Positions 996-49,064 of a stretch of DNA of 64,000 nucleotides are shown here, piece after piece. Source of the stretch: Acidicapsa acidisoli (lineage in GTDB: Bacteria > Acidobacteriota > Terriglobia > Terriglobales > Acidobacteriaceae); the NCBI RefSeq assembly GCF_025685625.1, contig NZ_JAGSYI010000001.1:1178001-1242000 (forward strand). Direction: 5' to 3'. Numbering within the stretch: the first letter of the stretch is position 1; the number at the start of each line of letters is the position of its first letter. The notes beneath the pieces were generated by a model. That model did not search any database, was not told the DNA's origin, and saw only the letters and a list, made by a program, of their open reading frames with translations. The position numbers and the translations under genes are program-made.

Positions 996-3662
996 ATGCC
1001 ACAAATACCCTTGTCGACATACCGGCTGCAATTGCATGCAGGATTCACCTTCAAAGACGCGGCCGGAGTGGCCGACTATTTGAAGAGGCTCGGCATCTCG
1101 CATGTGTACTGTTCGCCATATCTGCAGGCAATTCCCGGCAGCACCCATGGATATGACGTGGTAGACCCCGAAAAGCCTAATGAGGAGCTGGGCGGCGAAG
1201 AAGGACACAGCCGATTCTGCCAGCGTTTGAAAGAGCTTGAGTTGGGTCAGGTGCTGGATATCGTGCCGAACCATATGGCGCTCGGCCAGCAAAACCGGTA
1301 CTGGTGGGACGTAATTGAAAACGGCCCATCCAGCCGGTACGCAACCTGGTTCGATATCGATTGGCAATCGGCGGAGGTGAAGCTGCAGAACAAAGTTCTG
1401 ATTCCCGTGCTCGGGGACCAGTACGGACGGGAATTGAGCGCAGGCCGAATCAAGCTGGAATACACAGGCGACCGCTTTCAAGTGCGCTACTCGGACAATC
1501 TCTTTCCAGTCGCTCCAAGGTCTTTGTCTAACTTGCTTTCAAAGGCTGCCGAGTACGCGCACAGTGACACGCTTCACTTCATCGCCGGGAGTTTCGCGCG
1601 TCTGCCGTCACCGGAATTGAGCAATCGCGGCGACGCGAGTGCGAGGCATCGCGACAAGACCGTGATCTATCGAATGTTGAAGCAGCTTTGCAAAGAGCAA
1701 CCGGAAGTATCCGCGGCAATTTCCCGCGGCGTGGACGAGTTGAATCACGAGATGGATGCATTGGATGAGGTGCTGAATCAGCAGAGCTATCGATTGGCCT
1801 ATTGGCGCACGGCCGATCAGGAGTTGGGCTATCGGCGTTTCTTCGACGTGAACACGCTGATCGGCCTGCGAATGGAACGGGAGCATGTCTTCGAGGCGAC
1901 ACATTGCAGAATCCTACAATGGCTCGAGAATGGCGTGCTGGACGGCGTGCGCGTCGATCATCCCGATGGTCTGCGCGATCCCCAGCAGTATTTCGAACGA
2001 TTGAGAAAACGCGCGCCAGAAGCATGGATTGTCGGCGAGAAGATTCTCGAGCCCGGAGAGTTTCTGCGCGATAGCTGGCCGATTCAGGGAACCAGCGGCT
2101 ACGACTTCATGAACGTGTGCAACAGATTCCTCGTGCATGGCGAGGGCCTGACGGAACTCACGAAGATTTATAGCGAGTTCACCGGCGAGCCGGTCGACTT
2201 CGCCGAAGTGGCGCAGCAGAAGAAACAGATGGTTGAGCAAGAGGCTTTAGGCAGTGACATCAACCGTCTGGCGAGTTTATTCGTGGAGATATGCGAGAGC
2301 AACCGCGACCGCCGCGATTACACGCGCGCGGAGATTCGCCGTGCGCTTCGCGAAGTGGCGTCGAGCTTCCCGGTCTATCGAACGTATGTGGTTGCCGATC
2401 GAGACCGCATCCTCGATGAGGATCGCTTATACATCGACAACGCGGTGGCAATGGCCAAGGCGCGAAGGCAGGATCTCGATGCTGGCCTCTTCGACTTCAT
2501 CGCCGATGTGCTGACACTGCGTGTTCGGGGCAAGATGGAAGGCGAATTTCTGATGCGCCTCCAACAATTCACGTCTACTGTGATGGCGAAAGGCGTGGAA
2601 GACACGGCGTTTTATTGCTTCAACCGCATGGTCGGCTTGAACGAGGTGGGCAATAATCCGGGCCTCGACGGAATGTCCGTTGAGGCGTTTCACGATTATT
2701 TTGCAAAGATGCAGGCAACTCACCCTCTGACCATGACCACGCTCTCAACGCACGATACGAAACGAGCCGACGATGTAAGAGCACGGCTGGCGACAATCAC
2801 AGAGATTCCAGGACGATGGAGATCTGCGCTGAACCGCTGGTCGCGGATGAATGCGCGGTTCCGGAAAGGGAGTCACCCTGATCGAAACACGGAGTATTTT
2901 TTATACCAGACCCTGATCGGCGCATGGCCCATTGCAAAAGACCGGCTGATTGCTTACATGGAGAAAGCGGCTCGCGAAGCCAAGCAGCAAACCAGTTGGA
3001 CGCAACAGAACAAGGAATTCGAAGACGCATTGCGAAACTTCATCGAGCGGATTCTGGATTCCGCCGAATTCATCGCAGAGTTGGAGAAGTTTGTTGAACG
3101 CGTATTGAGTGCAGGGCGCGTCAACAGCCTCGCACAGACCCTTGTGAAGTGCACCGCTCCAGGCGTGCCGGATACCTATCAGGGCGGTGAGTTGTGGAAC
3201 CATAGCCTCGTGGACCCGGACAACCGCAGGCCAGTCGACTACGACGAGCGCCGAAGCATCCTGAGCAAGTTGGAAAAGGGCGTCGATGTAAAAGAAATCC
3301 TGAGCCGGATTGGCAGTAGTGTCGATAAAGGCATGCCGAAGATGTGGGTGATCCACAATGCGCTGTCTCTTCGCTGCAAACATCCGGAGTGCTTTGGAGC
3401 AGACGCAGCTTATACGCCATTGGCCGCTGAGGGACACAGGCGCGAGCACGTCGTGGGATATCTGCGAGCAGACAGGGTCGCCACCATCGTTCCCCGCTGG
3501 ACGCTGAAGCTTGGCGATAGCTGGGCGTCAACGACGCTCGAATTGCCACAGGGTAGTTGGAAGAACGTGCTCACCGGCGATGGAGTGAAGGGCGGCCGTA
3601 TGCGTGTGCAGGCGTTGTTGCAGCACTTTCCCGTCGCGCTTTTGATCAAGGAGGCGGAGTAG
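996..3662 (+). CDS. treY: malto-oligosyltrehalose synthase
   Basis: An 888-aa cytoplasmic GH13 enzyme that converts the reducing-end alpha-1,4 bond of maltodextrins into an alpha-1,1 bond, the first step of the TreY-TreZ route from glycogen to trehalose. Visible GH13 regions are DIVPNHM near residue 88, RVDHPDGL with the nucleophile Asp321, IVGEKIL with the acid Glu348, and LSTHDTKR with Asp587. The N-terminal STYRLQL start and the length are typical of TreY. The stop codon TAG directly abuts the ATG of treZ, so the two are almost certainly co-translated. No treX/glgX debranching gene is visible inside the window. Confidence 0.96.
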   Translation: MPQIPLSTYRLQLHAGFTFKDAAGVADYLKRLGISHVYCSPYLQAIPGSTHGYDVVDPEKPNEELGGEEGHSRFCQRLKELELGQVLDIVPNHMALGQQNRYWWDVIENGPSSRYATWFDIDWQSAEVKLQNKVLIPVLGDQYGRELSAGRIKLEYTGDRFQVRYSDNLFPVAPRSLSNLLSKAAEYAHSDTLHFIAGSFARLPSPELSNRGDASARHRDKTVIYRMLKQLCKEQPEVSAAISRGVDELNHEMDALDEVLNQQSYRLAYWRTADQELGYRRFFDVNTLIGLRMEREHVFEATHCRILQWLENGVLDGVRVDHPDGLRDPQQYFERLRKRAPEAWIVGEKILEPGEFLRDSWPIQGTSGYDFMNVCNRFLVHGEGLTELTKIYSEFTGEPVDFAEVAQQKKQMVEQEALGSDINRLASLFVEICESNRDRRDYTRAEIRRALREVASSFPVYRTYVVADRDRILDEDRLYIDNAVAMAKARRQDLDAGLFDFIADVLTLRVRGKMEGEFLMRLQQFTSTVMAKGVEDTAFYCFNRMVGLNEVGNNPGLDGMSVEAFHDYFAKMQATHPLTMTTLSTHDTKRADDVRARLATITEIPGRWRSALNRWSRMNARFRKGSHPDRNTEYFLYQTLIGAWPIAKDRLIAYMEKAAREAKQQTSWTQQNKEFEDALRNFIERILDSAEFIAELEKFVERVLSAGRVNSLAQTLVKCTAPGVPDTYQGGELWNHSLVDPDNRRPVDYDERRSILSKLEKGVDVKEILSRIGSSVDKGMPKMWVIHNALSLRCKHPECFGADAAYTPLAAEGHRREHVVGYLRADRVATIVPRWTLKLGDSWASTTLELPQGSWKNVLTGDGVKGGRMRVQALLQHFPVALLIKEAE

Positions 3663-5420
3663 ATGCATCGGTTTGAGATTTGGGCTCCGCGAGCGAAGAA
3701 GCTCGCTGTGAGAGTGAGCAGCGCTCTATTGGCGCCGACCACATTCGCGATGAATGGACCGGATGATCATGGCTGGTGGCGGCTCGATGTCGCGGAAGCC
3801 ATGCCCGGCGCGGATTACGGCTACCTGATCGATGACGATCCGAAGCCTTATCCTGATCCGCGTTCTCTGTGCCAGCCGAACGGTGTTCACGGGTTGTCTC
3901 GCTTGTATGACCAGCAGGCATTCGTCTGGAAGGATGTCGATTTCAGGCCGCCTCCGCTCGCCAGCGCCGTGATCTATGAAATGCATATTGGCACCTTCAC
4001 ACAGGAAGGAACGCTGGATTCGGCGATTGGCAGGCTCGATCACCTCGTTCATCTCGGCGTGACCCACGTGGAGTTGATGCCGGTTGCATCCTTCGCAGGC
4101 GACCAGGGTTGGGGCTACGACGGCGTCGCACTCTTCTCAGTCCATCAACCGTATGGAGGGCCGGACGCTCTGAAGCGATTCGTCGATGCCGCGCACGCAC
4201 GGGGCCTATCAGTGCTTCTCGACGTGGTCTACAACCACTTTGGCCCAGTCGGAAACTATACCGGCAAGTTTGGTCCCTATCTTGTGGAATCGCACAGCAC
4301 CCCCTGGGGTGGGGCAGTAAATTTTGAAGGCGGCGGAGCGCATCAGGTACGAAGATTCTTCTGTGACAACGCTCTGATGTGGATGCGGGACTTTCATATC
4401 GACGGGTTGCGGCTGGATGCAGTGCATGGATTCGTCGACCGATCGGCGATTCATTTTCTGGAGCAGCTCGCCGCCGAGGTGGAGGTATTGGGAGCAACTC
4501 TCGCGCGCCACTTCGTACTGATCGCAGAGAGCGACCTGAACGATCCACGCGTAGTAACTCCGCGTGAGGCCCGCGGCCTTGGCATGGATGCGCAATGGAA
4601 CGATGATTTTCATCATGCACTGTTCACCGTGCTCAACCCCGGTCCAACAACGGGATACTACGCGGACTTTGGCCGGTTAAGTCAATTGGCAAAAGCCGTG
4701 GAGCGGAACTTCGTCTACGACGGGATATATTCGAAGTTCCGGCACCGTATCCATGGGCGCTCCACAGGCAGCCTGTCGCAGCATCGGTTTATTGGATTCA
4801 TCCAGAATCACGATCAGGTGGGAAATCAGGCAACCGGAGAGAGATTGCTGGAGATTGTTGGCTTCGACCGCGCCAAAATCGCAGCCGCACTCGTGTTGCT
4901 GAGCCCATTTATTCCGCTGTTGTTTCAAGGCGAGGAGTGGGCTGCTTCATCGCCCTTCCAATACTTTGCCGACCATCAGGAACCAGAGATGGCCCGGCTT
5001 GTTTCCGAAGGACGAAAGAGAGAGTTCGCGGCCTTCGGCTGGGACCCGGATCTAATCCCAGACCCGGAGAAGCGAGAAACGTATGAACGATCGAAGTTGA
5101 AATGGGACGAGGTAAACGAAGGTACGCATGAAGAGATGCTGGCATGGTACCGCGAGCTGATCCGGTTGCGCCGCACTATGCCCTCGTTGAACGATGGCCA
5201 GCCGGGCCAAACGCATGTTCGATTTAACCAATTTGACCAGCGCGAGATGTGGTTATCCATGGAGCGCGGCGAGATAATCGTAACCTGCAATCTGGGCCAA
5301 GACGAATTTCGCGTTCCGTTGCCGCAAGGCAAGCGCCTCATCCTCAAATCGCGCGGCGGTGTAACGGAGATGGACGGCCAGGTGATCCTTCCAAAGAATT
5401 CGATAGCCATCCTTTCGTAG
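3663..5420 (+). CDS. treZ: malto-oligosyltrehalose trehalohydrolase
   Basis: A 585-aa GH13 enzyme that releases trehalose from maltooligosyl trehalose, completing the pathway begun by TreY. The N-terminal part (about residues 1-95) is the carbohydrate-binding/early-set domain starting FEIWAPRAKK, followed by the (beta/alpha)8 barrel. Catalytic positions are visible as GLRLDAVHG with Asp252, VLIAESD with Glu289 and QNHDQVGN with Asp384. The start codon immediately follows the treY stop, and an AGGAGG ribosome site lies inside the end of treY near 3650. Length and order are standard for a treYZ operon. Confidence 0.96.
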   Translation: MHRFEIWAPRAKKLAVRVSSALLAPTTFAMNGPDDHGWWRLDVAEAMPGADYGYLIDDDPKPYPDPRSLCQPNGVHGLSRLYDQQAFVWKDVDFRPPPLASAVIYEMHIGTFTQEGTLDSAIGRLDHLVHLGVTHVELMPVASFAGDQGWGYDGVALFSVHQPYGGPDALKRFVDAAHARGLSVLLDVVYNHFGPVGNYTGKFGPYLVESHSTPWGGAVNFEGGGAHQVRRFFCDNALMWMRDFHIDGLRLDAVHGFVDRSAIHFLEQLAAEVEVLGATLARHFVLIAESDLNDPRVVTPREARGLGMDAQWNDDFHHALFTVLNPGPTTGYYADFGRLSQLAKAVERNFVYDGIYSKFRHRIHGRSTGSLSQHRFIGFIQNHDQVGNQATGERLLEIVGFDRAKIAAALVLLSPFIPLLFQGEEWAASSPFQYFADHQEPEMARLVSEGRKREFAAFGWDPDLIPDPEKRETYERSKLKWDEVNEGTHEEMLAWYRELIRLRRTMPSLNDGQPGQTHVRFNQFDQREMWLSMERGEIIVTCNLGQDEFRVPLPQGKRLILKSRGGVTEMDGQVILPKNSIAILS

Positions 5421-5583: not shown

Positions 5584-8500
5584 TTGAAGCTTCTCAAGCT
5601 AGCTGCGTTCCTGTTGTGGTGGATGTATGCGATCTCCTGTGCCGCGGCCTTCGCACAGAAACCCCATCTTGTGGTCGAATCCGGCGCCAACACCGTGATG
5701 TCGGTTGCTTTCAGCCCTGACGGCCGCGTTATCGCTTCCGGAAGATACGATGGCACGATCAAACTTTGGGACGTCGACACCGGGCGCGGGCTGCGAACCC
5801 TGGCTGGACACAAAGGCCCCGTTCCCTCGTTGGCCTTCCGGCCCGACGGACACATGCTGGCTTCCGGAAGCTGGGATGGCTCGGCCAGGTTGTGGGATAC
5901 GGAGACGGGCCGCGAGTTGAACAGGATTGAGACAAAGAGGGGCTTGCCGGCTTGCGTGGCCTTCAGCGCAGATGGAAATACCCTGGCAATGGGTGACCTC
6001 AAGCGGGTCGTGCTTTGGGATGTGGAAGCAGGACGCCAGCGGCTGAGCCTGGCCACGGAGAAACTTCCTTCGACGGTAGCCTTCAGCCCCGATGGGCATC
6101 TGCTGGCCAGCGCGGGAGAGAGCGCCACGATCACGTTGGGAGATCCGTCAACCGGACGCGAACTGCGAAACTTGACAGCCCACGCCGCCTTCATCTACTC
6201 CCTGGCCTTCACTCAGGATAGCCGAACCCTGGCCTCGGGAGGCCTAAGCAGGGCAGTCGAGCTTTGGGACATGAAAGCCGGAGGCGAGCCGAAAATGTTG
6301 TTCACTCATCTCGATCACGTGCATTCATTGGCCTTTAGTCCCGACGGCAAGATCTTGGCGATTGCAGGAGAAGACAACACCGCCACACACGTGAGCGGAG
6401 CCGCACCAAACGCGATCGAACTCTGGGAAGTAAATCCCGAACGCCTGATCCGAACCCTGGTGGGCCAGTATGCAAGCTCCGCAGGGCTGGTCTATTCCGT
6501 CGCTTTCTCGCCCCATGGAGACATACTGGCTTCCGGCGGTATGGACGCGACAACCCGCCTCTGGGACACGGCCACAGGCCGGCAACTGCGAAATCTTACC
6601 GGCCACGCCAATGGAGTTTTGACAGTTGCATTTTCTCCCGATGGCCATAGCCTTGCATCGGGTAGCGGCGATGGGAAGATCCGGATATGGGATGCGGAAG
6701 CTGGACATGGGGAACGAATCCTTGGCAGCCACGCAAGCGGGGTTGCAGCCGTCGCGTTCGATCACCACGGCGGCGTTCTTGGCTCCGGAAGCACAGACGG
6801 CAAGGTAAAGCTCTGGGATGTAAAGAGTGGCGGCCAGCTCCACGAAATGGACGGAGACGTCTGTCCTCCGTCTGCATACTACTGCGGAGTCACTTCGCTC
6901 GGATTCACCCCCGATGACAGCGTTCTGGCGTCACTGGGAACAACCAGCGATGCGATCAATCTCTGGAGTGTGACCAGCGGACAGAAGAACCGGTCTCTGA
7001 CAGGCCAGAAATGGAATCAAGACATCGCGCTCAGCCCTGTCGGTCATACTCTGGCTTCGGTGAGCCGAGCGGGGCCGATCAGGCTCTGGGATCTCGAAGA
7101 TGGACATGAGGTGTTGAATATCGCCGGGAAAGACCCGAGTTTCAGCACATTGGCCTTCAGCCCCGATGGCCGGACCCTCGCCGCCGGTGGCATGTACAAG
7201 ATCAGACTGCTCGAAACATCCAAAGGGCGGGAACTGGGGAATCTGAATCCGCATAGTACTCGCGGCACATTCGGCAACGACCGCATCGTATTCAGCGCCG
7301 ACGGCCACAGTCTCATTTCGGGCCTCGGAGACGGCACCCTGAGGCTCTGGGATATCGACCATAAGCGCCAGGTGTGGATATCGCCCGGGCCCGGCGAAGC
7401 AACCGCTTGTGTGGCCATTGACCCTGCCGGCCGGCATATCGCGTCATGCCACACCGGCGATGGCGCTGTGAGGCTGTGGGACATCAACGGCAAGGAACTC
7501 GCTGCGTTGTTTGCCGTCGACCGGGACCACTGGGTTGTTTCCGATCCCGAAGGCCGCTTCGACACCGACGATCTGGACGAGATCCGGGGCTTGAACTGGG
7601 TCTTTCCCGACGATCCATTTCGAGCGCTGCCGCCGGAAGTCTTTCTTCGCGATTACTATGTCCCGGACCTCCTCGCAAAACTGTGGAACTTTGAGAAGCT
7701 TCCCGCAATCCGGCCATTGTCCAGCCTGAACCGCGCACAGCCCACGGTAGAACTGATCAAGGCCGATCCAGAGCCAGACGGAGAGTTTGTTTCCGTCGCC
7801 GTCAAAGTAAACGGCCCAGCCTCAGAGACACAGAAGGACGAGCGCGGCCATCCTATGCAAAGCGGCGCTTACGATTTACGCCTGTTTCGGGATGGGCAAC
7901 TGATCGCTCAGTGGCCTGAAACAACTGGCGTTCGAGAGCGGTCGCCCAATGCACAGGCCGCACAGACGGAGATAGAATCCTGGCGAAAGACTCATGAGAT
8001 CGAGCTGGTCAACGGTGAGTACACACACGTCTTCAACCATATCCGCCTGCCACGCCGTAAGGGCATTGAAAAGGTCGACTTCACGGCGTATGCCTTCAAC
8101 TCGGATCGGGTCAAGAGCCTGACTGCCGGGCCGCTCGAATATCCTCCGCCCAACGCGCCGTTTTTGTCCGAGGCGCCGGTAACCCGCCGCGCTTATCTGA
8201 TCACTGTCGGGGTGAACGCAAACCAGTCACACTGGAATCTGGACCTGGCCGCGCCAAGCGCACAAAGCGCTGCGCAACTGTTGCACGAGAAGCTGGCAAG
8301 CGAATATAACGTGATCGATGTTTCACTGTTGTCAACGCTGGCTCCGGACAGTCCACGAGTGGTGCTGGAACAAGCGACGAAAGCGAATGTGAAGGCGATC
8401 CTCGATCTGTTGGCTGGACGATCGATCACGGATACTGAACGGGATGCCGTCGATCCGGATCACAAAGTTCAGACCGCAACTCCGGACGACGCGGTCGTGC

Positions 8501-9093
8501 TATTCATCTCCAGCCATGGCTACGCCGATCCGCAAGGAACTTTCTACGTTGTGCCTTACGACACCGGCGCCGTATCAGGAGTTACGGAAGACGTGCTCAC
8601 TCGCTGCCTTACGCATCCCGAGGAGCAAAGTCCGGCCTGCCAGAAAGCGAGCGCGTTTCTTCAGCGCACAATTTCCAGCCAGGACTTCAGCGCCTGGTGG
8701 GCAGGAGTAGATGCTGGAGAGGCGGTGATGATACTGGACTCCTGTCATTCGGCAGCGATGCCGGGTCGAGAGTTTCGTCCCGGGCCGCTCGGCGACGCCA
8801 GCTTCGGACAGCTTGGCTACGACAAGCGCATGAAAATCCTCTCTGCCACGCAGCCTGACAAGACCGCAAGAGCGACCATGGTGCAGGGGTTGGGTCACTC
8901 GTTGTTGGTAGAGGCACTCATCCAGGAGGCAAAAGCTCATCCGCAAGAACCTTTGGCGCAATTGCTGCACGATACGCAGCAGCAGGTGCGGCCTCTGGTT
9001 CGACAACTCTACCCGGAAATGAAGGAGGCCGACATTCAACTGCCGGCCTTGTTCGATTTTGGAATGAAAGACAATCTCAAGAGCGAATTCTGA
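5584..9093 (+). CDS. secreted WD40-repeat protein with C-terminal caspase-like (C14) peptidase
   Basis: A 1169-aa exported protein. Residues 1-24 form a signal peptide ending AFA before Gln25; the start is TTG with GCAGGTGA just upstream. From about residue 35 to 650 I count roughly 14 WD40 units, recognised by recurring LWD-type strand ends (for example LWDVDTG, LWDTETG, IWDAEAG), enough for two seven-bladed propellers. Residues about 700-860 look like a beta-rich linker. From about residue 870 comes a caspase/metacaspase-like domain with the catalytic His978 in ISSHGYAD and Cys1054 in ILDSCHSA. Both catalytic residues are present, so an active peptidase is expected, probably periplasmic or surface-located. 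The two next genes follow closely and likely form an operon. Partners and substrate are unknown. Confidence 0.88.
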   Translation: MKLLKLAAFLLWWMYAISCAAAFAQKPHLVVESGANTVMSVAFSPDGRVIASGRYDGTIKLWDVDTGRGLRTLAGHKGPVPSLAFRPDGHMLASGSWDGSARLWDTETGRELNRIETKRGLPACVAFSADGNTLAMGDLKRVVLWDVEAGRQRLSLATEKLPSTVAFSPDGHLLASAGESATITLGDPSTGRELRNLTAHAAFIYSLAFTQDSRTLASGGLSRAVELWDMKAGGEPKMLFTHLDHVHSLAFSPDGKILAIAGEDNTATHVSGAAPNAIELWEVNPERLIRTLVGQYASSAGLVYSVAFSPHGDILASGGMDATTRLWDTATGRQLRNLTGHANGVLTVAFSPDGHSLASGSGDGKIRIWDAEAGHGERILGSHASGVAAVAFDHHGGVLGSGSTDGKVKLWDVKSGGQLHEMDGDVCPPSAYYCGVTSLGFTPDDSVLASLGTTSDAINLWSVTSGQKNRSLTGQKWNQDIALSPVGHTLASVSRAGPIRLWDLEDGHEVLNIAGKDPSFSTLAFSPDGRTLAAGGMYKIRLLETSKGRELGNLNPHSTRGTFGNDRIVFSADGHSLISGLGDGTLRLWDIDHKRQVWISPGPGEATACVAIDPAGRHIASCHTGDGAVRLWDINGKELAALFAVDRDHWVVSDPEGRFDTDDLDEIRGLNWVFPDDPFRALPPEVFLRDYYVPDLLAKLWNFEKLPAIRPLSSLNRAQPTVELIKADPEPDGEFVSVAVKVNGPASETQKDERGHPMQSGAYDLRLFRDGQLIAQWPETTGVRERSPNAQAAQTEIESWRKTHEIELVNGEYTHVFNHIRLPRRKGIEKVDFTAYAFNSDRVKSLTAGPLEYPPPNAPFLSEAPVTRRAYLITVGVNANQSHWNLDLAAPSAQSAAQLLHEKLASEYNVIDVSLLSTLAPDSPRVVLEQATKANVKAILDLLAGRSITDTERDAVDPDHKVQTATPDDAVVLFISSHGYADPQGTFYVVPYDTGAVSGVTEDVLTRCLTHPEEQSPACQKASAFLQRTISSQDFSAWWAGVDAGEAVMILDSCHSAAMPGREFRPGPLGDASFGQLGYDKRMKILSATQPDKTARATMVQGLGHSLLVEALIQEAKAHPQEPLAQLLHDTQQQVRPLVRQLYPEMKEADIQLPALFDFGMKDNLKSEF

Positions 9094-19955: not shown

Positions 19956-21431
19956 TCAATCAAGCTTCGCCACCAGCAGTGCAGGCCGTTCCTTCGCCAG
20001 CTTGAGAATCAGCTCCCCATACAGCGTATTCGCCCACGCAAACCACGGCCGCGTGAAATCCTTCGGGTTGTCGCATTGAAAAGATTCGTGCATAAATCCT
20101 GTGCCCGCCGTAGTGTCGCGCAGCCAGCGCAGGCACTGGCGAATCTCCCCGTCATCGACCGAAGTCAACGCCCGCATCAGGATCGACATCGGCCAAATCA
20201 TGTTCAGCCCCTCATGCGGGCCGCCAATCCCCTCCGCAGCCTTACCGCGAAAGAAATACGGATTGGCCGGACTCAGCGCAAAGCTGCGCGTCCGCCGGTA
20301 CAGCGGGTCATCCACAGCGCAACAACCCAGATACGCCAGACTCAGCAGCCCCGGCGCATTCGCGTCATCCATCTTGAGGACGTTGCCGTAACCATCCACT
20401 TCGTACGCCCAGATGCGCTCCTGTGCAGTGTCGTCGGTCATTCCGTATTGCTGAAGCGCGCGTTCCACTTCCCCGGCAAGCTCCAGACAGCCTTCCCGCA
20501 GCTTCGCGTCGCTGAAAACCTCTTTGGCCAACTCGGCCAACTGCCGCAAGCTGGTCACCGCAAACAGATTCGCGGGCACAAACAGCGGATAGATGCAGGC
20601 ATCATCCGAAGGCCGGAACATCGAAAAGATCAACCCCACAGGCCGCGCCGGATTGCCAAACCCGCCCAGCGGAACCGTATCCGTCGGCACCGGGCTCTCG
20701 CGCTGAAACGAATACGGCCCCGGCCCAGCCTTGCGCTGCTGCACGCGAAACGTCTCAAGGATCGTCCACGCCGTCTGCTTCCATTCGCCGTCAAACGGCG
20801 CAGTGTCGCCCGTTTCGCGCCAGTACCCGTGCGCCAGCCGCACCGGATAGCACAGCGAATCGATCTCCCATTTGCGTTCTCCCACGCCCGGCACATGGTG
20901 CGTCTTGTCATGCACCGCCCAGCTCAACGGCGGGTCCGCCGGGTTGCGCATAAAAGCATTGGCGTAGGGATCGATGCGAATCATCCGTCCCTGGCGGCGA
21001 ATCACGCCTTCCACCAGCTCGCGCAGCTTTGCGTCGCCCTTCAACAAGGGAAGATAAGGCCAGAGCTGCGCCGAGGAATCGCGCAGCCACATCGCGTCGA
21101 TATCGCCCGTCACCACATACGTATCCGGCTTGCCTTCAAATCGTCCCGGCCACACCGTCGTATCCAGCGTGTTGGGAAAGCAATTGGCGAAGAGGACTCC
21201 GAGATTGGGATCGCCAATCCTGCCCTGTAACCGCTGGATCGTCTCCTCGACCGCCGTGCTAACAAAGCGCCGGTCCGCAGCCTTGGGCCGCGCCTCGGGC
21301 AGGCGCAAATCAGCCGCAGCCTCGCCCGGCGCAAAACCAAACAACGGTTGCAATTGCGAGCCGACGGTCAGGGCCGCCGCGCCTTTAAGCCATGCGCGAC
21401 GGGATACTTGCGGAAGTGACATTAAACTCAT
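19956..21431 (-). CDS. GH125 metal-independent alpha-mannosidase
   Basis: A 491-aa glycosidase. The N-terminus has a twin-arginine type signal (SRRAWLKGAAALTVG), so it is probably exported folded. The conserved family stretch is DIDAMWLRDSSAQLWPYL near residue 130, followed by IDPYANAF and WEIDSLCYP; length is as expected for GH125. Characterised members are exo-alpha-1,6-mannosidases acting on N-glycan or yeast-type mannans. It is read toward the 228-aa orphan, and CutC lies just upstream on the same strand. It fits a glycan-degrading role with the GH18 and GH29 genes nearby. Confidence 0.9.
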   Translation of the reverse strand: MSLMSLPQVSRRAWLKGAAALTVGSQLQPLFGFAPGEAAADLRLPEARPKAADRRFVSTAVEETIQRLQGRIGDPNLGVLFANCFPNTLDTTVWPGRFEGKPDTYVVTGDIDAMWLRDSSAQLWPYLPLLKGDAKLRELVEGVIRRQGRMIRIDPYANAFMRNPADPPLSWAVHDKTHHVPGVGERKWEIDSLCYPVRLAHGYWRETGDTAPFDGEWKQTAWTILETFRVQQRKAGPGPYSFQRESPVPTDTVPLGGFGNPARPVGLIFSMFRPSDDACIYPLFVPANLFAVTSLRQLAELAKEVFSDAKLREGCLELAGEVERALQQYGMTDDTAQERIWAYEVDGYGNVLKMDDANAPGLLSLAYLGCCAVDDPLYRRTRSFALSPANPYFFRGKAAEGIGGPHEGLNMIWPMSILMRALTSVDDGEIRQCLRWLRDTTAGTGFMHESFQCDNPKDFTRPWFAWANTLYGELILKLAKERPALLVAKLD

Positions 21432-24505: not shown

Positions 24506-25879
24506 ATGAAGCAGCTTCACAAGTTCGCGCTAGATAGCTTTGATAAGTTCGCTCTAGCTGCCGCCTGCGCCGTCCTTCTGGCAACATCAAGCCCCGCCCA
24601 GAACTTCTCCGAAATCAAACCCTCCCCGCAGCAGACCGCCTGGCAGGACCTTGAATTCGGCGTCATCCTCCACTTCTCCACCAACACCTTCCTCGACCGC
24701 GAATGGGGCGACGGCACCGCCGACCCCAAAGTCTTCAACCCCGCCAGCTTCGATCCCGACCAGTGGATGCAGGCCATTCAGGCCTCCGGCGCAAAATACG
24801 TCGTCCTCGTCGCCAAGCACCACGACGGCTTCTGCCTCTGGCCCACCGCGCAAACCGACTACAGCATCAAAGCCAGCCCCTGGAAAGACGGCAAAGGCGA
24901 CATCGTCGGCGAAGTAGCCCGCGCCGCGCGCAAATACGGCCTTAAATTCGGCGTCTACCTCTCCCCGTGGGACCGCCACGACCCGTGCTACAAAGACCCC
25001 GCAGCCTACGACAAGTACTATCTCTCCGAACTCGAAGAACTGGCCTCCAACTACGGCGACCTCGTCGAATTCTGGCTCGACGGAGCCGGCAGCGCAGGCC
25101 ACGTCTACGACTTCAAAAAGATCATCGAAACCCTGCGCACTTACCAGCCCAACACCCTCGTCTTCGCCGACACCGGCCTCTTCGAATACGGCGACGCCCG
25201 CTGGGTCGGCACCGAAAGCGGCCGCGTCCCGTACGAAAACTGGAACGTCATCGACCGCCACGGCTACCTGCGCTGGCGTCCCATCGAAGCCGACACCCCG
25301 CTGCGCAACCTGCACTGGTTCTGGCACCCCAACGACGAAGCATCCCTCAAATCCCTCGACGAACTCCTCGAAACCTACGACCAGACCGTAGGCCGCGGAG
25401 CACAACTCATGCTGGGGGTAGCCCCCGACAATCGCGGCCTCCTGCCCGACTCCGACGCAGCCCGCCTCAAAGAATTCGGCGCAGCCATCAAAGCCCGCTA
25501 CAGCCACAACCTCGCACTAGAACACGCCGCTACAACCCCAGAACAAGCCGCCGCCCTCGATGGCAACCCGGACACCTTCTGGTCCGCCCCGCAAGGCTCG
25601 CACCACAGCACGCTCGAAGTGAACTTCGCCAAGCCCATCACTTTCAACCGCGCCCTGACAATGGAGTGGCTCAACGACGGCCAGCACATCCAGAAATACG
25701 CCATAGAAATCTGGGACAGCCAGACCTCAAAATGGAAGCCAGTCGCGCAAGCCCAGGCCATCGGCCACAAAAAGATCGATACCTTCCCCGCAGTAACCGC
25801 CTCCCGCGTGCGCCTGAACATCCAATCCAGCACCACAGAAGCCCAAATCCGCGAGTTCCAGATCTACAGTGTCAAATGA
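24506..25879 (+). CDS. GH29 alpha-L-fucosidase, secreted
   Basis: A 457-aa exported enzyme. An N-terminal hydrophobic signal ends near SSPAQ (residue ~32). The barrel has LEFGVILHFSTNTF, KHHDGFCLWPT, and VEFWLDGAG, in which the Asp is the expected nucleophile of retaining GH29 fucosidases. From about residue 340 a C-terminal beta-sandwich of the F5/8 type C (CBM32-like) class appears (DGNPDTFWSA ... LEVNFAKPITFNR). It should release terminal alpha-linked fucose. It ends the plus-strand glycan run and is followed by a good terminator. Confidence 0.92.
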   Translation: MKQLHKFALDSFDKFALAAACAVLLATSSPAQNFSEIKPSPQQTAWQDLEFGVILHFSTNTFLDREWGDGTADPKVFNPASFDPDQWMQAIQASGAKYVVLVAKHHDGFCLWPTAQTDYSIKASPWKDGKGDIVGEVARAARKYGLKFGVYLSPWDRHDPCYKDPAAYDKYYLSELEELASNYGDLVEFWLDGAGSAGHVYDFKKIIETLRTYQPNTLVFADTGLFEYGDARWVGTESGRVPYENWNVIDRHGYLRWRPIEADTPLRNLHWFWHPNDEASLKSLDELLETYDQTVGRGAQLMLGVAPDNRGLLPDSDAARLKEFGAAIKARYSHNLALEHAATTPEQAAALDGNPDTFWSAPQGSHHSTLEVNFAKPITFNRALTMEWLNDGQHIQKYAIEIWDSQTSKWKPVAQAQAIGHKKIDTFPAVTASRVRLNIQSSTTEAQIREFQIYSVK

Positions 25880-30044: not shown

Positions 30045-32585
30045 TTGCCGGCAGAAACAACGAAACGCTTCGTCTGCATTCACGGACATTTCTACCAGCC
30101 GCCTCGCGAAAACCCATGGCTTGAGACCATCGAGACACAGGACTCAGCCGCTCCCTACCACGACTGGAATGAGCGGATCTGCTCCGAGTGCTACGCCACC
30201 AATGGCGCCGCCCGCGTGGTCAACAATGAAAACCAGATCACCCGCATCGTCAACAACTACGCGCGTATGAGCTTCAACTTCGGCCCCACGCTGCTGAGCT
30301 GGCTGGCCGAAAACGCCCCACGCACCTATCGAATGATTCTGGACGGCGAGCGCCGCAGTTGCGGTCTCTTCGACGGCCATAGCTCGGCCATGGCGCAGGT
30401 CTACAACCACCTCATCATGCCTCTGGCCAGCCGCCGTGACCGCCTTACCCAAATCCGCTGGGGCATCTCCGACTACACCCACCGGTTCGGCCACCCTCCA
30501 GAAGGCATGTGGCTCGCCGAAACCGCCGCCGACACGGAAACCCTCGAACTACTTGCCCAGGAAGGTATTCGCTTCACTGTCCTCGCCCCGCGGCAATGCA
30601 AGCGAGTCCGGGCTCTTGCGACCGAAAAGACCGCAACCGGCGGTGCAAAGCCGACCGGCGACTGGATCAGCACACCGAACGCCAGCGTCGATCCGACGCA
30701 CCCATATCTCGCGCGATTCGCCTCGGGAGCTTCGCTGGCAATCTTTTTCTACGATGGCCCAACCTCACGAGCCATCGCTTTTGAAGGGCTGCTCAACTCC
30801 GGCGAAAACTTCGTCTCCCGACTCAAACAGGGATTTCTCGATAACAACGAGCCGCAGCTTGTCCATGTGGCCACCGACGGCGAAAGCTACGGCCATCACC
30901 ACAAACACGGCGAAATGGCCCTGGCTTACGCCCTGCGCCTCTTGGAACAGGACACGAACGCTGGGCTGATCAACTACGGCAGCTTCCTCGAACAGTTCCC
31001 GCCAAAATGGGAGGCCGAGATTTACGACAACTCCTCGTGGAGCTGCGACCACGGCGTGGAGCGCTGGCGGTCGAACTGCGGCTGCAACGGCGGAAAGCCT
31101 GGCTGGAACCAACTCTGGCGCGCTCCGCTCCGTGAAGCTCTCGACCAACTTCGCGATTCCCTCGTGCCGCTCACAGAGAAGGTCGGCAACCTGCTCTTCA
31201 AAGACGTGTGGGCGGCGCGCGACGAGTACATCAACATCATCCTCGACCGCAACCTCGAAAACGTCGAACGTTACTTCGATGCACACCAGCACCACCCGCT
31301 CACCGACGAAGAACGAATACGCACGCTCGAACTTATGGAAATGCAGCGGCATACGCAGCTGATGTACACCAGTTGCGGCTGGTTCTTTGACGACATTTCA
31401 GGCATTGAAACCGTGCAGATCATCGCCTACGCAGCCCGCGTCATCCAGCTGTCGCAGGAGTTGTTCCTCGAAGACGCCGCAGGCCTCGAACTGGCGTTCC
31501 TCGACAAGCTGGCCCAGGCCAAGTCCAATGTTCCTTCTGCCGGAGACGGCGCAAAAATATACACACAGCAGTGCCTTAACATGGAGCTCAGCCTCGAACA
31601 GGTGGCAGCGCACTACGCCATCAGTGCTGTCTTCTCCTCATTCGCCGACGAAACTGAGATCTTCTGCTACCAGATCCATCGCATCTCCTACGAAATCTTC
31701 AACTCAGGCCGAGGCCGTCTGGCGCTGGGCCGCGCCCGTATTACTTCATCGATCACCGGCAACTCGGAGAGCTTCTCGTTCGCCGTGCTCCACTTTGGCG
31801 ACCAGAACATCACCGCAGCGGTCAAAGCCTATCAGCCCGATGACCCCACAGCAGCCGAAGGCTTTGAAAAAGTTGTCACGCAGGCTCGTGAGCAGGTACG
31901 CAACGCCAACTTCCCCGAGGTCATCCGCCTGCTGGACCGCTACTACGACCTCGACTACTCGCTCACCTCGCTCTTCCGCGATGATCAGCGCAGAATCATC
32001 CAGGTCATTCTCAACTCGACACTGGCCGACATTGAGGTTTCGCTCAAAAACATCTACGAAGATCATGCGAGCTTGCTGCATTACCTCGCCCAGACGGGCT
32101 TGCCGAAGCCACCCGCGCTTGCACTGGCCGCAGGATTCGCCGTCAACGCCGGACTACGCCGCGCTCTGGAAGCCGACCCCATCGATCTCTCGCTAGTTCG
32201 GTCTTTTCTCAACATGGCCAAGTCCGACGAGGTCCCGCTGGATACGCCAACTCTGACGTATGTTGCAGATCTGCGGATGAAGCGCGCCATGCTGGAACTC
32301 ACGATGTCCTCCGGCAACCTGGAAATCCTCGATCGCGCTCTCAACCTGGCCCGCACCCTCACCGAACTGCCCTTTGAATTGAATCTCTGGCAGGCGCAGA
32401 ACATCTGGTACGAAATCCTGCGAAGTTCGACCTACTCGCTCACCGCCCACGATCCCGAAGATCGTCCTCGCTGGGACCGGGACTTCCGCGAGCTCGGCTG
32501 TTGCCTTTCGATTGCCTGCGACATCATTACCGCCGAAGTCGCAGGGCCCGTTCCAGCGGATGATCTTTTAATTGCGGAAGCGTAG
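30045..32585 (+). CDS. GH57/DUF3536 glycoside hydrolase-like protein
   Basis: An 846-aa cytoplasmic protein. The N-terminus has the GH57 opening strand FVCIHGHFYQPPRENPW, and VATDGESYGHHHKHGEMAL at about residue 280 carries probable active-site acids. The C-terminal half is the helical DUF3536 region (CGWFFDDISGIETVQ...). GH57 enzymes act on alpha-glucans, but members with DUF3536 are not well characterised. The start is TTG 30045 with GAGGGGG just upstream. Its stop precedes the next gene closely, so co-transcription with the FGE-like fusion is likely. Confidence 0.86.
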   Translation: MPAETTKRFVCIHGHFYQPPRENPWLETIETQDSAAPYHDWNERICSECYATNGAARVVNNENQITRIVNNYARMSFNFGPTLLSWLAENAPRTYRMILDGERRSCGLFDGHSSAMAQVYNHLIMPLASRRDRLTQIRWGISDYTHRFGHPPEGMWLAETAADTETLELLAQEGIRFTVLAPRQCKRVRALATEKTATGGAKPTGDWISTPNASVDPTHPYLARFASGASLAIFFYDGPTSRAIAFEGLLNSGENFVSRLKQGFLDNNEPQLVHVATDGESYGHHHKHGEMALAYALRLLEQDTNAGLINYGSFLEQFPPKWEAEIYDNSSWSCDHGVERWRSNCGCNGGKPGWNQLWRAPLREALDQLRDSLVPLTEKVGNLLFKDVWAARDEYINIILDRNLENVERYFDAHQHHPLTDEERIRTLELMEMQRHTQLMYTSCGWFFDDISGIETVQIIAYAARVIQLSQELFLEDAAGLELAFLDKLAQAKSNVPSAGDGAKIYTQQCLNMELSLEQVAAHYAISAVFSSFADETEIFCYQIHRISYEIFNSGRGRLALGRARITSSITGNSESFSFAVLHFGDQNITAAVKAYQPDDPTAAEGFEKVVTQAREQVRNANFPEVIRLLDRYYDLDYSLTSLFRDDQRRIIQVILNSTLADIEVSLKNIYEDHASLLHYLAQTGLPKPPALALAAGFAVNAGLRRALEADPIDLSLVRSFLNMAKSDEVPLDTPTLTYVADLRMKRAMLELTMSSGNLEILDRALNLARTLTELPFELNLWQAQNIWYEILRSSTYSLTAHDPEDRPRWDRDFRELGCCLSIACDIITAEVAGPVPADDLLIAEA

Positions 32586-32697
32586 GTGGGACATCGCAAG
32601 CGGATGGAAGTCGAGAGATGCACTGTCGCAAAATCTCACACCAATGTCGACTGAGTCATTTGTTGAACTTCGCTTCCTGCGATACACAGAGGCTTCC

Positions 32698-35112
32698 GTG
32701 ACTGGTTTCAAACTTGCCTCCCTTCCCCTGCTTGGTTTAGCTCTGACTCTATCCGCTTGCTCGCCATTTGCCTTCGCTCAGGATGTTCAATACAGCCCGC
32801 AGGGAGAGCAGATTCCCGGCCCATCCTGCGCCGGCATTCCGCAATGGTATGGTGGCAAGCCGCGCACCTGCCAGTCTGGCGAACTCGCCTTTTGGCTCAG
32901 CGACATCCGGCATTGGCGCGATGAGCGACGTTTGCGCATTGGTTTTGAACCGAGCATCTACGAAACTCCTGCGCTCAAGTGGACCCAGTCCAGCTTCATT
33001 CAGCCTCAGATGATGGTTCACGACCGCTTCTTCTACGATCCAGCAACGCAGAAATACACGGTCGACAAGTATCTTTCCGACCTCGAATCACGCTACGGCG
33101 GCATCGACAGCGTGCTTATCTGGCATACCTATCCCAACATCGGCATTGACAGCCGAAATCAGTTTGACATGCTCTCTGACCTGCCCGGCGGAATCCCCGC
33201 CGTGAAAGCCATGATCGCCGACTTCCATCGCCACGGCGTCAAAGTTCTCTTTCCTGTGATGGTCTGGGACCAGGGCACGCGGCCCGATCCCAACTTATGG
33301 CAGGAGCTAAACAAAGAGTTAGCCGAAATAGGCGCCGATGGAGTCAACGGAGATACGCTCGATGGCATTCCTCAAATGCTCGCCACGGACTCGCTCAAGA
33401 ACGATCATCCCCTCGCGCTGGAGCCGGAAACGGGCCTTGCGGCCGATGAAATGATCAACTACAACACGATGACGTGGGGTTACTGGCGATACGACTTTAT
33501 ACCGTCTGTCAGCCGCTATAAATGGCTCGAACCGCGCCACATGGTCAACCTATCGAACCGATGGGCGCATAACCATCTCGACGATTTGCAGGCGGCCTTC
33601 TTCAACGGCACCGGCTTTGAAAGCTGGGAGAACATCTGGGGCATCTGGAACCAGCTTACCCCGCGCGACGCCGAAGCGTTGCGCCGCATCTCGGCCATTG
33701 AACGCGTCTTTGCGGCACAGTTGATAACTCCGGGATGGGAGCCGCATACGCCGACACGTAACTACGGCGTCTTCGCGAGTAAGTGGCCCACCGAAACCCA
33801 GACTCTCTGGACCCTCATTAATCGCAACCCCTACGAGATAGAAGGCGGCCAGTTGCGAATTCAGCAAGCCAAAGCCGCGCACTACTACGATCTCTGGCAT
33901 GGCGTCGAGTTGCAGCCAACCATCGAAGACGGCGCAATCATCCTCGACTTCTCTATGGAAACCCATGGCTACGGCGCGATCCTCGAAACCACGCAATCAT
34001 CCGCCGAGTTATCGCCTGCGATTCAGCAGCTTCTCACGCAGATGAAACTCCTTTCGCAGCAGCCGCTGGATTCCTTCTCGAATGAATGGGAATCGCTGCC
34101 TCAGAAACTGGTTCCGATCGACAAGACTGAGCCTGCCGCGAAACAGCCCGAAGGCATGATCCGCATCCCCGCCGCTGACTACACATTCCGCGTCAACGGC
34201 ATCGAAATCGAAGGCATGAACGACGAAGGCGTCGATGTGCAGTATCCGTGGGAAGACTCCGCGCGGCGTTATCACGAGCACCGGATGCACGTCGACTCTT
34301 TCTGGATCGACAAGTTCCCTGTCACCAACGCCGACTTTAAGCGCTTCCTCGATGCCTCGCACTACCAGCCTGCCGACGCACACAACTTCCTCAAAGACTG
34401 GCAGAATGGCACGTATCCCGAAGGCTGGGCCAACAAGCCTGTGACCTGGGTCTCCATCGAAGACGCACGCGCTTACGCCAAATGGGCCGGCAAGCGCCTG
34501 CCTCACGAGTGGGAGTGGCAATACGCCGCGCAGGGCACAGATGGCCGCCGCTATCCGTGGGGTAACTATGAAGGGCCGGCGACGCCCGCCGCCACTCCTC
34601 AAGCCCAGCCAGCTTCGCAGCCAGCGCCTGCGCCTGCTGCGCCTATTTCGTCTCCAACTCCAGCGCCCGTAAAGGGTCCCGCAAAAGCAAGTCCAAGGAC
34701 GACGCAGGCAGCCAAGCCGAGTTCCGCGCCTAATCCTCCTGCGACCGACAAGCCCGCTTCATCGGAAGCCTGTCCCACGTGCCCGCCGGTGGTGATGGGC
34801 TCGACTCCCGACCCAGACAGGGGTCGCGAAGCGTTGCCGCCGAGCGAAGTAAACTGGCATCCGCGAGGAGCAAGCCCGTTCGGTGTCATGGACCTCACGG
34901 GCAATGTGTGGCAATGGACCGACGAGTATGTCGATGAGCACACCCGGTTCGCGATCCTGCGCGGAGGCAGCCATTATCAGCCGCAAGGCTCCCGCTGGTA
35001 CTTCCCGCAGGCTTACGAGCTAAGTCAGCACGGAAAATATCTGCTGATGGCTCCGAGCCTCGACCGCAGCGCTACCGTAGGGTTCCGCTGCGTCAAAGAT
35101 GCGACGCCGTAG
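32698..35112 (+). CDS. lipoprotein fusing a glycosidase-like region to an FGE/SUMF1-like domain
   Basis: An 804-aa exported protein starting with GTG 32698 (AGAGG upstream); in-frame starts at 32572 and 32644 give implausible leaders. The signal ends in a lipobox-like LTLSAC, so it may be a lipoprotein, although cleavage at AFAQ is also possible. Residues ~30-460 look like a TIM-barrel glycosidase (DSVLIWHTYPNIG, GVNGDTLDGIP). Residues ~480-800 form a sulfatase-modifying-factor-like domain (DSFWIDKFPVTNADFKRFL, KRLPHEWEWQYAA, DLTGNVWQWT, GFRCV). A Pro/Ala-rich insert of about 70 residues splits this domain after YPWGNYEG. The paired catalytic cysteines of true FGE are not seen, so it is probably a binding or different enzymatic domain. 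Confidence 0.78.
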   Translation: MTGFKLASLPLLGLALTLSACSPFAFAQDVQYSPQGEQIPGPSCAGIPQWYGGKPRTCQSGELAFWLSDIRHWRDERRLRIGFEPSIYETPALKWTQSSFIQPQMMVHDRFFYDPATQKYTVDKYLSDLESRYGGIDSVLIWHTYPNIGIDSRNQFDMLSDLPGGIPAVKAMIADFHRHGVKVLFPVMVWDQGTRPDPNLWQELNKELAEIGADGVNGDTLDGIPQMLATDSLKNDHPLALEPETGLAADEMINYNTMTWGYWRYDFIPSVSRYKWLEPRHMVNLSNRWAHNHLDDLQAAFFNGTGFESWENIWGIWNQLTPRDAEALRRISAIERVFAAQLITPGWEPHTPTRNYGVFASKWPTETQTLWTLINRNPYEIEGGQLRIQQAKAAHYYDLWHGVELQPTIEDGAIILDFSMETHGYGAILETTQSSAELSPAIQQLLTQMKLLSQQPLDSFSNEWESLPQKLVPIDKTEPAAKQPEGMIRIPAADYTFRVNGIEIEGMNDEGVDVQYPWEDSARRYHEHRMHVDSFWIDKFPVTNADFKRFLDASHYQPADAHNFLKDWQNGTYPEGWANKPVTWVSIEDARAYAKWAGKRLPHEWEWQYAAQGTDGRRYPWGNYEGPATPAATPQAQPASQPAPAPAAPISSPTPAPVKGPAKASPRTTQAAKPSSAPNPPATDKPASSEACPTCPPVVMGSTPDPDRGREALPPSEVNWHPRGASPFGVMDLTGNVWQWTDEYVDEHTRFAILRGGSHYQPQGSRWYFPQAYELSQHGKYLLMAPSLDRSATVGFRCVKDATP

Positions 35113-47204: not shown

Positions 47205-49064
47205 TTAATCCGCCTTCCCAACCGTCTTTTCGGTATAAGCCTTCTGCAGGACAAAGAAAGCCTGCTTCTTTACGCCCTGATCGCTGATCAGCCCTTTGCG
47301 GTTGAACATATCCTGAATCCCGGCCAGCGGACGGCGCGGCGAGCGGAAATCCATCAGAATCCACGGGCTCATCCCGCGTAGCTGATCGATCCGGTTCAGC
47401 ATCCCAAGCTGGTGGCGGAAGACGTTGGCTTGGTACTCCTCGGTCCAGCGGTCGTTTTCGCCCCCATGCAGTCCGGCCTTGGCGTCGGCGCCGAATTCGC
47501 TCATGATTAGCGGCTTCTGGTAAGAGATTTTCCAGTCCGTCGTATCGGCCGTCTCCGGATGCTGCTCATACCATCCGATGTATTCGTTCGTCCCCAAAAC
47601 ATCGAGGTACTGCCCAAGTGGATCGTCGACGACCTTGATTGACCGGGCACCATTCTGCTCGGTATGCACCAGCAGCGCCGCCGTGATCAGCCGCGTCGGA
47701 TCAAGCTCACGCGCACGCGCTGCAAGCGACGAGATGAACTTCGTGCGCAAATCGTTGATCGGTGTCTCATTGGCCATTGACCACAAGATGATCGCCGCAT
47801 GATTCCGTGAGGTGCCGATCTCTTCTTCCAACTGATGCTGCGCATTCGCATAGACTGCCGAATTTCCAAACTGCACCGCCCAGTACACCGGGCTCTCCGA
47901 CCACACCAACAGGCCCATCCGGTCTGCCGCTCGAAGCATCGTTTCATCGTGGGGATAGTGCGCCAGCCGCACATAATTCGCGCCCATTTCCTTGGCCCAG
48001 CCGAGCAGCGTTTCCGCATCCTTGTCCGTATATGCGCGACCCAACCGATATGGAGCCTCCGCATGAATACAAACCCCGCGCAGGAAGATCGGCTTCCCAT
48101 TCAACAGAATCTCCGTCCCTTTGACCTCAACCGTGCGGAAACCGATCAGATCCTCGACCGAATCCGTGCCGGCTTTTACCGAAACCTTGTAGAGCTTCGG
48201 CGTCTCAGGCGACCACAGCGTTAGTCCCGGCGCGCTGATCTCAATCGAAGCGCGGCCATCCTCGCCCACCTTCGCTTCAGCCTTTGCATTTGCTTCGGGA
48301 ATGGCAACATCGACAGTCTCGCCGACCGCGCCGCCGTTTACATGCACCCAGCCCTCGATTTTGCCGTGGTCGGCGCGAGAGAGATGCAGATCGTACTGAT
48401 CGATAAACGCCTCCGGCACAGTGATCAGCGAAACCTCGCGCGTCAGGCCGCCATAGTTGAACCAGTCGGTCTGCGTCGTCGGGACACCGTCTTCATGGCG
48501 CGTGTTATCGACTACTGCGATCACGAAGTTGCTGCCGGGATGCACCTCTGCGGTCACATCGCAGTTGAAAGCCGTGAAGCCGCCCTCGTGTTCGCAGACC
48601 TTCTGTCCGTTGACCCAGAAGATGGACTTGTAGTTGGCCGCGCCAATGCGCAGGAAGGTGCGCGTGTGCGCCTTCGGCTCGAAGTTGAAATCCTTCTCGT
48701 ACCACATCAGCCCTTCGTACCAGAAAAACTCGGGCTTCTGCGTGTTCCAATCGCCGGGCACTTTCAGTGTCTCGGCTTTGGAAAAGTCGTAGTCCACCGG
48801 CCCGGTATCGCCTGGCTTGGCCTTCTGATTGACGAACCATCCCCGTGCAATCTCATGTTTGTGAAAGTCATATAACCCAGTTTGATAGGGGTCGGGAATG
48901 ACATGCCACTCTCCATTGAGCGACTGCACAGGCCTTCTGTCCGCGCCGGTAAGGACAATAGGCGCAGCCGGGGAAGATTCAGCGACGGCGCAGGCGGTGC
49001 TCAGGGCAACCAACATTGCGGACAGGACAAGAGCAGCAGGAAAACGCAGCAGGATCAGCTTCAT
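47205..49064 (-). CDS. GH2 glycosidase, beta-glucuronidase-like, secreted
   Basis: A 619-aa exported GH2 enzyme. A signal peptide covers residues 1-28 (ends ACAVA). The sugar-binding jelly roll starts with RPVQSLNGEWHV, an Ig-like domain follows, and the barrel starts around PIFLRGVCIHAEAPY. The acid/base Glu is in WSMANETP and the nucleophile Glu in LIMSEFGADA. The SLNGEW and YEGLMWYEKDF features are those of beta-glucuronidases, but beta-galactosidase activity is also possible. It stands between an unknown secreted-protein gene and the PsiE gene. Confidence 0.9.
   Translation of the reverse strand: MKLILLRFPAALVLSAMLVALSTACAVAESSPAAPIVLTGADRRPVQSLNGEWHVIPDPYQTGLYDFHKHEIARGWFVNQKAKPGDTGPVDYDFSKAETLKVPGDWNTQKPEFFWYEGLMWYEKDFNFEPKAHTRTFLRIGAANYKSIFWVNGQKVCEHEGGFTAFNCDVTAEVHPGSNFVIAVVDNTRHEDGVPTTQTDWFNYGGLTREVSLITVPEAFIDQYDLHLSRADHGKIEGWVHVNGGAVGETVDVAIPEANAKAEAKVGEDGRASIEISAPGLTLWSPETPKLYKVSVKAGTDSVEDLIGFRTVEVKGTEILLNGKPIFLRGVCIHAEAPYRLGRAYTDKDAETLLGWAKEMGANYVRLAHYPHDETMLRAADRMGLLVWSESPVYWAVQFGNSAVYANAQHQLEEEIGTSRNHAAIILWSMANETPINDLRTKFISSLAARARELDPTRLITAALLVHTEQNGARSIKVVDDPLGQYLDVLGTNEYIGWYEQHPETADTTDWKISYQKPLIMSEFGADAKAGLHGGENDRWTEEYQANVFRHQLGMLNRIDQLRGMSPWILMDFRSPRRPLAGIQDMFNRKGLISDQGVKKQAFFVLQKAYTEKTVGKAD

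Follow-up and report, generated by a model that had tools for sequence, protein, structure and literature searches.

The gene analyzed here belongs to a widespread, mis-named family of predicted enzymes, which is not a categorically new system, and it joins a glycosidase-like barrel to an FGE-type domain devoid of the cysteines that characterize FGE. We consider it fairly probable that the product is an exported retaining glycosidase of an alpha-amylase/GH129-like fold, which would release a ribose-like sugar and carry a repurposed FGE fold. Hydrolysis, retention, the substrate and the role of the FGE half are what we infer from the computed folds, the fusion, the invariance of residues, the missing cysteines and the gene neighbourhood. 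Since the fusion is found in many bacteria, and often beside ribose-type uptake genes, it is probably a sugar-releasing enzyme and not an activator of sulfatases. The family, seen here mostly in Acidobacteriota, bears a name that takes no account of the larger of its two halves. Should it prove to be a glycosidase, soil carbon cycling would gain a further enzyme family, one with a predicted catalytic pair and a predicted sugar class. An FGE-type domain without the FGE cysteines has moreover been kept across phyla, and all complete copies that we examined have it joined to this barrel.

Gene, protein and export

The window, i.e. the whole stretch of 64,000 nucleotides that was analyzed, contains a reading frame at 32572-35112 (+) that includes the gene at 32698-35112, whose probable start is a GTG at 32698 and whose product has 804 aa. 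From N- to C-terminus, this protein has a signal peptide, then a TIM barrel half that resembles amylases and finally a half of the FGE family (PF03781) (Table 1). An earlier note, made from the DNA letters, had described an open reading frame of these coordinates with a two-part make-up, and both proved real: FGE-sulfatase PF03781 is the sole Pfam match of the protein at E<=0.01 (E 1.4e-34, 120.4 bits, cut-off 23.3), and the N-terminal half, modelled by itself, is predicted with confidence as a TIM barrel plus a beta-sandwich (pLDDT 92.0, pTM 0.93). The full-length model reaches a pLDDT of 85.3, with the insert region as the sole stretch below 50 (model residues 595-668, i.e. protein residues 622-695, as the protein number equals the model number + 27). 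Its overall pTM of 0.85 hints at a fixed arrangement of the two halves. Across 78 aligned sequences, 210 of the 804 positions are at least 95% conserved, and these are spread over both halves. This alignment leaves out L059 and L081, which are cut by contig ends; the thinned alignments A1 and A2 hold 61 and 62 of the 77 relatives at <82% mutual identity, with L064 left out of A1 on account of unknown bases. A separate comparison of 22 rows unites twelve near relatives, including the window protein, with ten distant ones (L100-L109, ~30% identical).

Table 1. Features of the fusion gene, with coordinates in the window
Feature	Residues	Coordinates	Strand	Basis
Signal peptide	1-27	32698..32778	+	Sequence; AxA-type site in relatives; probable signal-peptidase-I cut between AFA and Q28
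Glycosidase-like half (TIM barrel and C-terminal beta-sandwich)	28-470	32779..34107	+	Predicted structure, fold matches; no Pfam family
Candidate nucleophile in GADGVNGD, directly after barrel strand 4	Asp219	33352..33354	+	Invariant in 78/78 and 22/22 rows
Candidate acid/base in LALEPE, directly after barrel strand 5	Glu244	33427..33429	+	Invariant in 78/78 and 22/22 rows
FGE-like (PF03781) half without catalytic cysteine pair	480-804	34135..35109	+	Pfam, fold, alignments
Pro/Ala-rich disordered insert in the loop after PWGN	about 629-704	34582..34809	+	21 Pro and 17 Ala in 76 residues; low pLDDT

The protein had been called exported and possibly lipid-anchored. Export remains probable, given the predicted signal peptide, but the lipid anchor is unlikely for the family. 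Gln28 is invariant in all 78 aligned sequences, and in 73 of the 77 rows with enough sequence an AxA-type site stands before it. A lipobox was kept in just two of 77 scorable rows, those of the window protein and of L065, for which reason we rejected a lipid anchor as a family trait. With the AxA site common and the lipobox rare among relatives, the family is probably secreted via signal peptidase I, a prediction drawn from the relatives' sequences. The window copy may be lipid-anchored nonetheless, given its own lipobox-like LSAC at residues 18-21. In a copy from Sphingopyxis, the open frame starts three codons before the annotated start, which leaves no space for a signal peptide, and its location hence differs from that of its relatives.

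The barrel half and the FGE half

Structure prediction and fold comparison support a glycosidase-like fold of the N-terminal half, as the earlier note had proposed, although a common fold by itself shows no function. The best match is the GH13 chain 1jf5 (Z 20.4 over 327 residues, rmsd 3.5, 12% identity). The GH129 chain 5opq aligns over 344 residues (model 4-432, Z 18.9, 13% identity) and GH129 8rzk covers the whole barrel half (Z 18.6); human 4F2hc/CD98 is among the matches as well. Since the fold alignment took in Foldseek's top 1000 chains only, other GH families missing from the list carry no meaning. The two findings that the earlier note had named as refuting it, catalytic cysteines in an alignment and an N-terminal part without a glycosidase fold, were both sought, and neither turned up.

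At the level of sequence families, residues 28-470 of the window protein match no Pfam family at E<=1. Scanning 63 barrel members gave six weak, scattered family matches (best E 0.017), and neither PF00128 (GH13) nor PF11308 (GH129) was among the matches of any of them at E<=1. The barrel profile compared to PDB sequences hit an antibody chain and a sulfate permease domain, both at chance level. An hhalign comparison of alignment A4 with one GH129 protein returned a probability of 0.1%, the single-sequence template making this a weak test, and a search of that order (18 genomes) for further GH129 sequences returned the same gene alone. On these grounds, i.e. no PF11308 match and an empty comparison with one weak template, membership in GH129 by sequence was rejected. 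The barrel has no Pfam family of its own, and it may have a CAZy family.

The model places barrel strand 4 at protein residues 215-218 (model 188-191) and strand 5 at residues 240-243 (model 213-216). In GH129, the catalytic pair is an Asp after strand 4 and a Glu after strand 5. Asp219 and Glu244 stand at what we take to be the nucleophile and acid/base positions of GH13 and GH129, an equivalence by position and not by residue-level superposition. They belong to a set of acidic barrel residues kept in all 22 rows of the diverse comparison, namely Asp137, Asp151, Asp191, Asp214, Asp219, Glu244 and Glu404, with Glu308 kept in 21 of them; Trp190-Asp191, Thr194 and Asn303-Gly304 are also kept throughout. 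GH13 enzymes carry an Arg two residues before the nucleophile and a third catalytic Asp after strand 7. The Arg is not kept in these 22 rows, where position 217 is Asn or hydrophobic, and no invariant Asp is listed there near strand 7 (model 255-258), judged by position only and not by residue-level superposition.

For the FGE half, the closest folds are CalU17 (Z 20.7), EgtB (20.4), SUMF2 (20.4), PvdO (18.8) and FGE chains (about 19-20), and SUMF2 is the best PDB match of its profile (E 4.3e-27). The FGE fold is C-type-lectin-like, and the cysteine pair of FGE binds copper. Anchored on GGS, human FGE reads GGSYMCHRSYC and the window protein GGSHYQPQGSR. The lack of catalytic cysteines, already remarked upon for this one protein, extends to its relatives: none of the 22 rows has a Cys in the catalytic stretch, and the sole conserved Cys column of the half is the final one, GFRC, kept in 75 of 78 aligned sequences. 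Other conserved residues of this half include Trp767-Tyr768, His778, Lys780 and Asp789-Arg790. This supports the view, on sequence grounds, that the half is not a canonical FGE. SUMF2, EgtB and GldK are superfamily members without the cysteine pair, and since its loss is known elsewhere in the superfamily it is ordinary in itself. The NCBIfam equivalogs for SenA (60.2 of 420 bits) and EgtB (50.5 of 360) match below cut-off, that for PvdO also falls far under its curated cut-off, and a Pfam scan of the window protein found no DinB domain. The genome's two other PF03781 genes encode a protein-kinase fusion (L114) and an EgtB-like protein with DinB (L115). Neither has the cysteine pair, and the EgtB-like one has a single Cys right after GGS. 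Of the FGE domains elsewhere in this genome, that of the kinase fusion, on contig C2, is the closest.

The Pro/Ala-rich insert of ~70 residues that had been read after the PWGN motif is present as described. It lies in the loop between the PWG and FGV motifs. Most rows (53 of 78) have a loop of 33 residues there, two have 34-36 and 23 have 47-109; the loop spans 106 aa in the window protein and 104-109 in the group that this protein forms with L004 and L005, and it is shorter in the relative L011. Loop lengthening is not confined to one clade of the tree. The insert is a predicted disordered, lineage-specific loop expansion and no domain.

Distribution and gene neighbourhood of the family

The architecture had been called unusual, and the fusion was sought in other genomes, where it turned up across Acidobacteriota and in Sphingopyxis and Spirosoma. 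It is unusual in being unnamed but not in being rare. Of 514 stretches matched in the genome contig collection, 506 code for a relative, and the 80 best of these 506 correspond to 79 distinct loci, mostly from Acidobacteriota and also from Asticcacaulis, Caulobacteraceae, other Alphaproteobacteria and a Planctomycetota bin; L005 among them is Acidicapsa dinghuensis, and locus L084 is the same DNA. In the window's genus, eight of 15 genomes have a full-length or near full-length copy. In the phylum, the barrel profile matches 22 of 297 genomes, eleven in the window's family and eleven in other families. One of the former, G161, has fragments only: at about 3810-3999 of its contig C46 lie broken barrel matches, one with an in-frame stop, a possible gene remnant. 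The eleven genomes outside the family contribute ten open frames of 933-1134 aa and one (L100) of 728 aa. L101-L109 (937-1134 aa) have an additional N-terminal region of roughly 200-400 residues ahead of the barrel, for which seven of the nine were scanned with no Pfam match.

The pairing of the two halves is constant. Both were present in all 20 phylum loci checked (one being the window gene itself; G278 and G161 were left out), a Pfam scan of eight distant phylum relatives agrees, and the two halves occur together in all 31 later loci tested. Once three copies of the window gene and four duplicates of loci from the first scan are subtracted, 24 additional genes matched by the barrel are left, each of them distinct and each with the FGE half, including relatives about 30% identical. 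In total, 112 ORFs with both halves were counted, some being the same gene taken twice. A single barrel-only piece (L050:2-532) runs off the edge of its locus. At L054, a 170-residue ORF (309-818) matches the FGE-half profile alone, with no Pfam match at 1e-5; since this locus also holds a full-length copy, the ORF may be a broken or second copy. Two relatives lie on plasmids, in Sphingopyxis (50.7% identity, 87% covered) and Spirosoma (35.2%, 80% covered), and the records of both carry the name 'SUMF1/EgtB/PvdO family nonheme iron enzyme', in which the barrel goes unmentioned. By the titles and abstract openings of the literature matches listed, the fusion was not found described.

Within five genes of the 79 loci, we found a TonB-type receptor at 34, a permease at 29, a LacI gene at 24 and a PfkB gene at 21; for the 41 loci with >5 kb on both sides the counts are 22, 18, 14 and 12. 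Because the best 80 of 506 relatives were taken, these numbers apply to the loci nearest the query. Neighbours were grouped by single-linkage BLAST clustering, and each group takes its name from representatives, which match CarboxypepD_reg with an outer-membrane barrel, Ureide_permease/Sugar_transport, LacI and PfkB. PfkB is directly adjacent to the fusion gene in 12 of the 79 loci and is no neighbour at 58 of them (29 of the 41 with full flanks). The seven PfkB genes of the window's own 7.1-Mb genome give a chance expectation of roughly 1% per 13-kb window, an arithmetic value from one genome to be read with relatives that are not independent. The arrangement of PfkB, permease, TonB and LacI genes recurs in several separate clades of the tree. 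Two of the kinases exceed the TIGR02152 ribokinase cut-off (317 and 327 of 300 bits) but, with 296 and 294 bits, stay short of the 341 bits that another ribokinase model demands. On the Sphingopyxis plasmid, the gene order is TonB receptor, ribokinase, fusion gene and GH127; this kinase, annotated as ribokinase, scores 260 and 242 bits, under both model cut-offs.

GH172 (DUF2961), identified from four of four members, lies beside four of the 79 loci, and GH172 members cleave D-arabinofuranosides according to PMC10115798. This neighbour set points to a pentose, probably furanosidic, and not to one certain substrate. Among the remaining neighbours, 108 of 151 were scanned and the 25 commonest families are shown. 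ADP-ribosylglycohydrolase makes up four of those 108, amylase-like genes stand beside L018 and L022, glucuronyl esterase genes are likewise among the neighbours, and GH28 neighbours the Spirosoma copy; these genes point to more than one substrate.

TonB, permease, LacI and PfkB neighbours were found neither at the window copy nor at its nearest relatives L004 (4 kb of sequence covered, with short flanks) and L005, and none of the 25 neighbour clusters listed contains a gene from the window. On the window's contig, the distance to the closest PfkB gene is ~158 kb. No locus of this kind surrounds the window copy, whose substrate is therefore the part of our proposal that we hold with the least certainty. 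Directly upstream on the same strand, a GH57 + DUF3536 protein is encoded at 30045-32585 (+). An operon with it is unsupported, the nearest relative with full flanks, L005, having an SDR gene and a diguanylate cyclase (GGDEF protein) as neighbours instead. The window further holds an Alpha-L-fucosidase match with an F5/8 type C domain (24506-25879, +), GH125 (19956-21431), GH2 (47205-49064) and an Alpha-amylase match (996-3662). A 1169-residue protein with many WD40/beta-propeller repeat matches is encoded at 5584-9093 (+). A sulfatase near an FGE gene is frequent and not required. The window holds none, in agreement with the earlier note, and the genome's four PF00884 matches (two over cut-off) all lie elsewhere.

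Proposed function and comparison with known systems

On the reading that we favour, the nucleophile that attacks the anomeric carbon would be Asp219, at the end of strand 4, and the acid/base would be Glu244, at the end of strand 5. The FGE half would belong to the same enzyme as a fixed element with a structural or substrate-binding role, and would not generate formylglycine. At the fuller loci, the TonB receptor would import a ribose-type, probably furanosidic, glycoside from which the fusion enzyme would release a monosaccharide, to be taken up by the inner-membrane permease and phosphorylated by the ribokinase. A bolder version is tentative: the barrel would found a new GH family acting on ribose/arabinose-type furanosides, hidden under the 'nonheme iron enzyme' name, and its ex-FGE domain would be obligatory and help to form the pocket.

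Non-enzymatic amylase-like ectodomains exist, and the barrel might accordingly be dead as a hydrolase, the whole protein being a secreted glycan-binding or sensing protein with a lectin-like FGE half. The appearance of human 4F2hc/CD98 among the fold matches, the missing FGE cysteines and the lack of an assigned substrate are in keeping with this. We nevertheless judge it unlikely, as all 22 diverse rows retain the acidic pair behind strands 4 and 5 along with Trp190-Asp191, Thr194 and Asn303-Gly304, which fits a working active site, and as a kinase and a permease at many loci fit a freed monosaccharide. Less likely still is an amylase-type, GH13-like alpha-glucosidase tied to alpha-glucan metabolism: GH13 enzymes are the best fold matches, and the GH57/DUF3536 gene upstream, the Alpha-amylase match in the window and the amylase-like genes by L018 and L022 would suit it, but PF00128 is unmatched in the 63 barrel members, the GH57 neighbour is missing at L005, no neighbour cluster of the 25 listed holds a gene from the window, and ribokinase-type genes are the commoner company of the relatives. 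An equally low probability attaches to the idea that the 'nonheme iron enzyme' name is correct and that the FGE half is an active metal-dependent domain, kin to EgtB, SenA and PvdO, for which the barrel positions the substrate. The product name on both plasmid copies, the NCBIfam matches to all three and the fold similarity to EgtB (Z 20.4) speak for it. Against it stand the SenA and EgtB scores far under their curated cut-offs, the missing FGE cysteine pair and the missing DinB domain, which the EgtB-like gene of the same genome does have.

For the barrel half, GH129 is a near structural relative, with ZgGH129 3,6-anhydro-D-galactosidase (5opq) superposing on the whole of it; GH129 differs in that its Pfam model matches none of the 63 members and that the comparison with one GH129 sequence was empty. 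GH13, represented by TVA II (1jf5), provides the best fold match, with Asp and Glu places alike by position only, whereas the identity is low (12%), PF00128 is unmatched and the Arg before the nucleophile is not kept. On the other side of the fusion, FGE/SUMF1 (2aft, 1y1e) has the PF03781 domain and the fold (Z 19.4-19.6) in common with the window protein, which, unlike it, has neither the catalytic cysteine pair nor a sulfatase in the window. CalU17, EgtB and PvdO share the FGE-type fold with the FGE half, which departs from EgtB, SenA and PvdO in its NCBIfam scores far below cut-off and in the missing DinB domain. SUMF2/pFGE (1y4j, Z 20.4) also lacks the cysteine pair in its aligned sequence; it is a 284-residue human chain without a glycosidase barrel.
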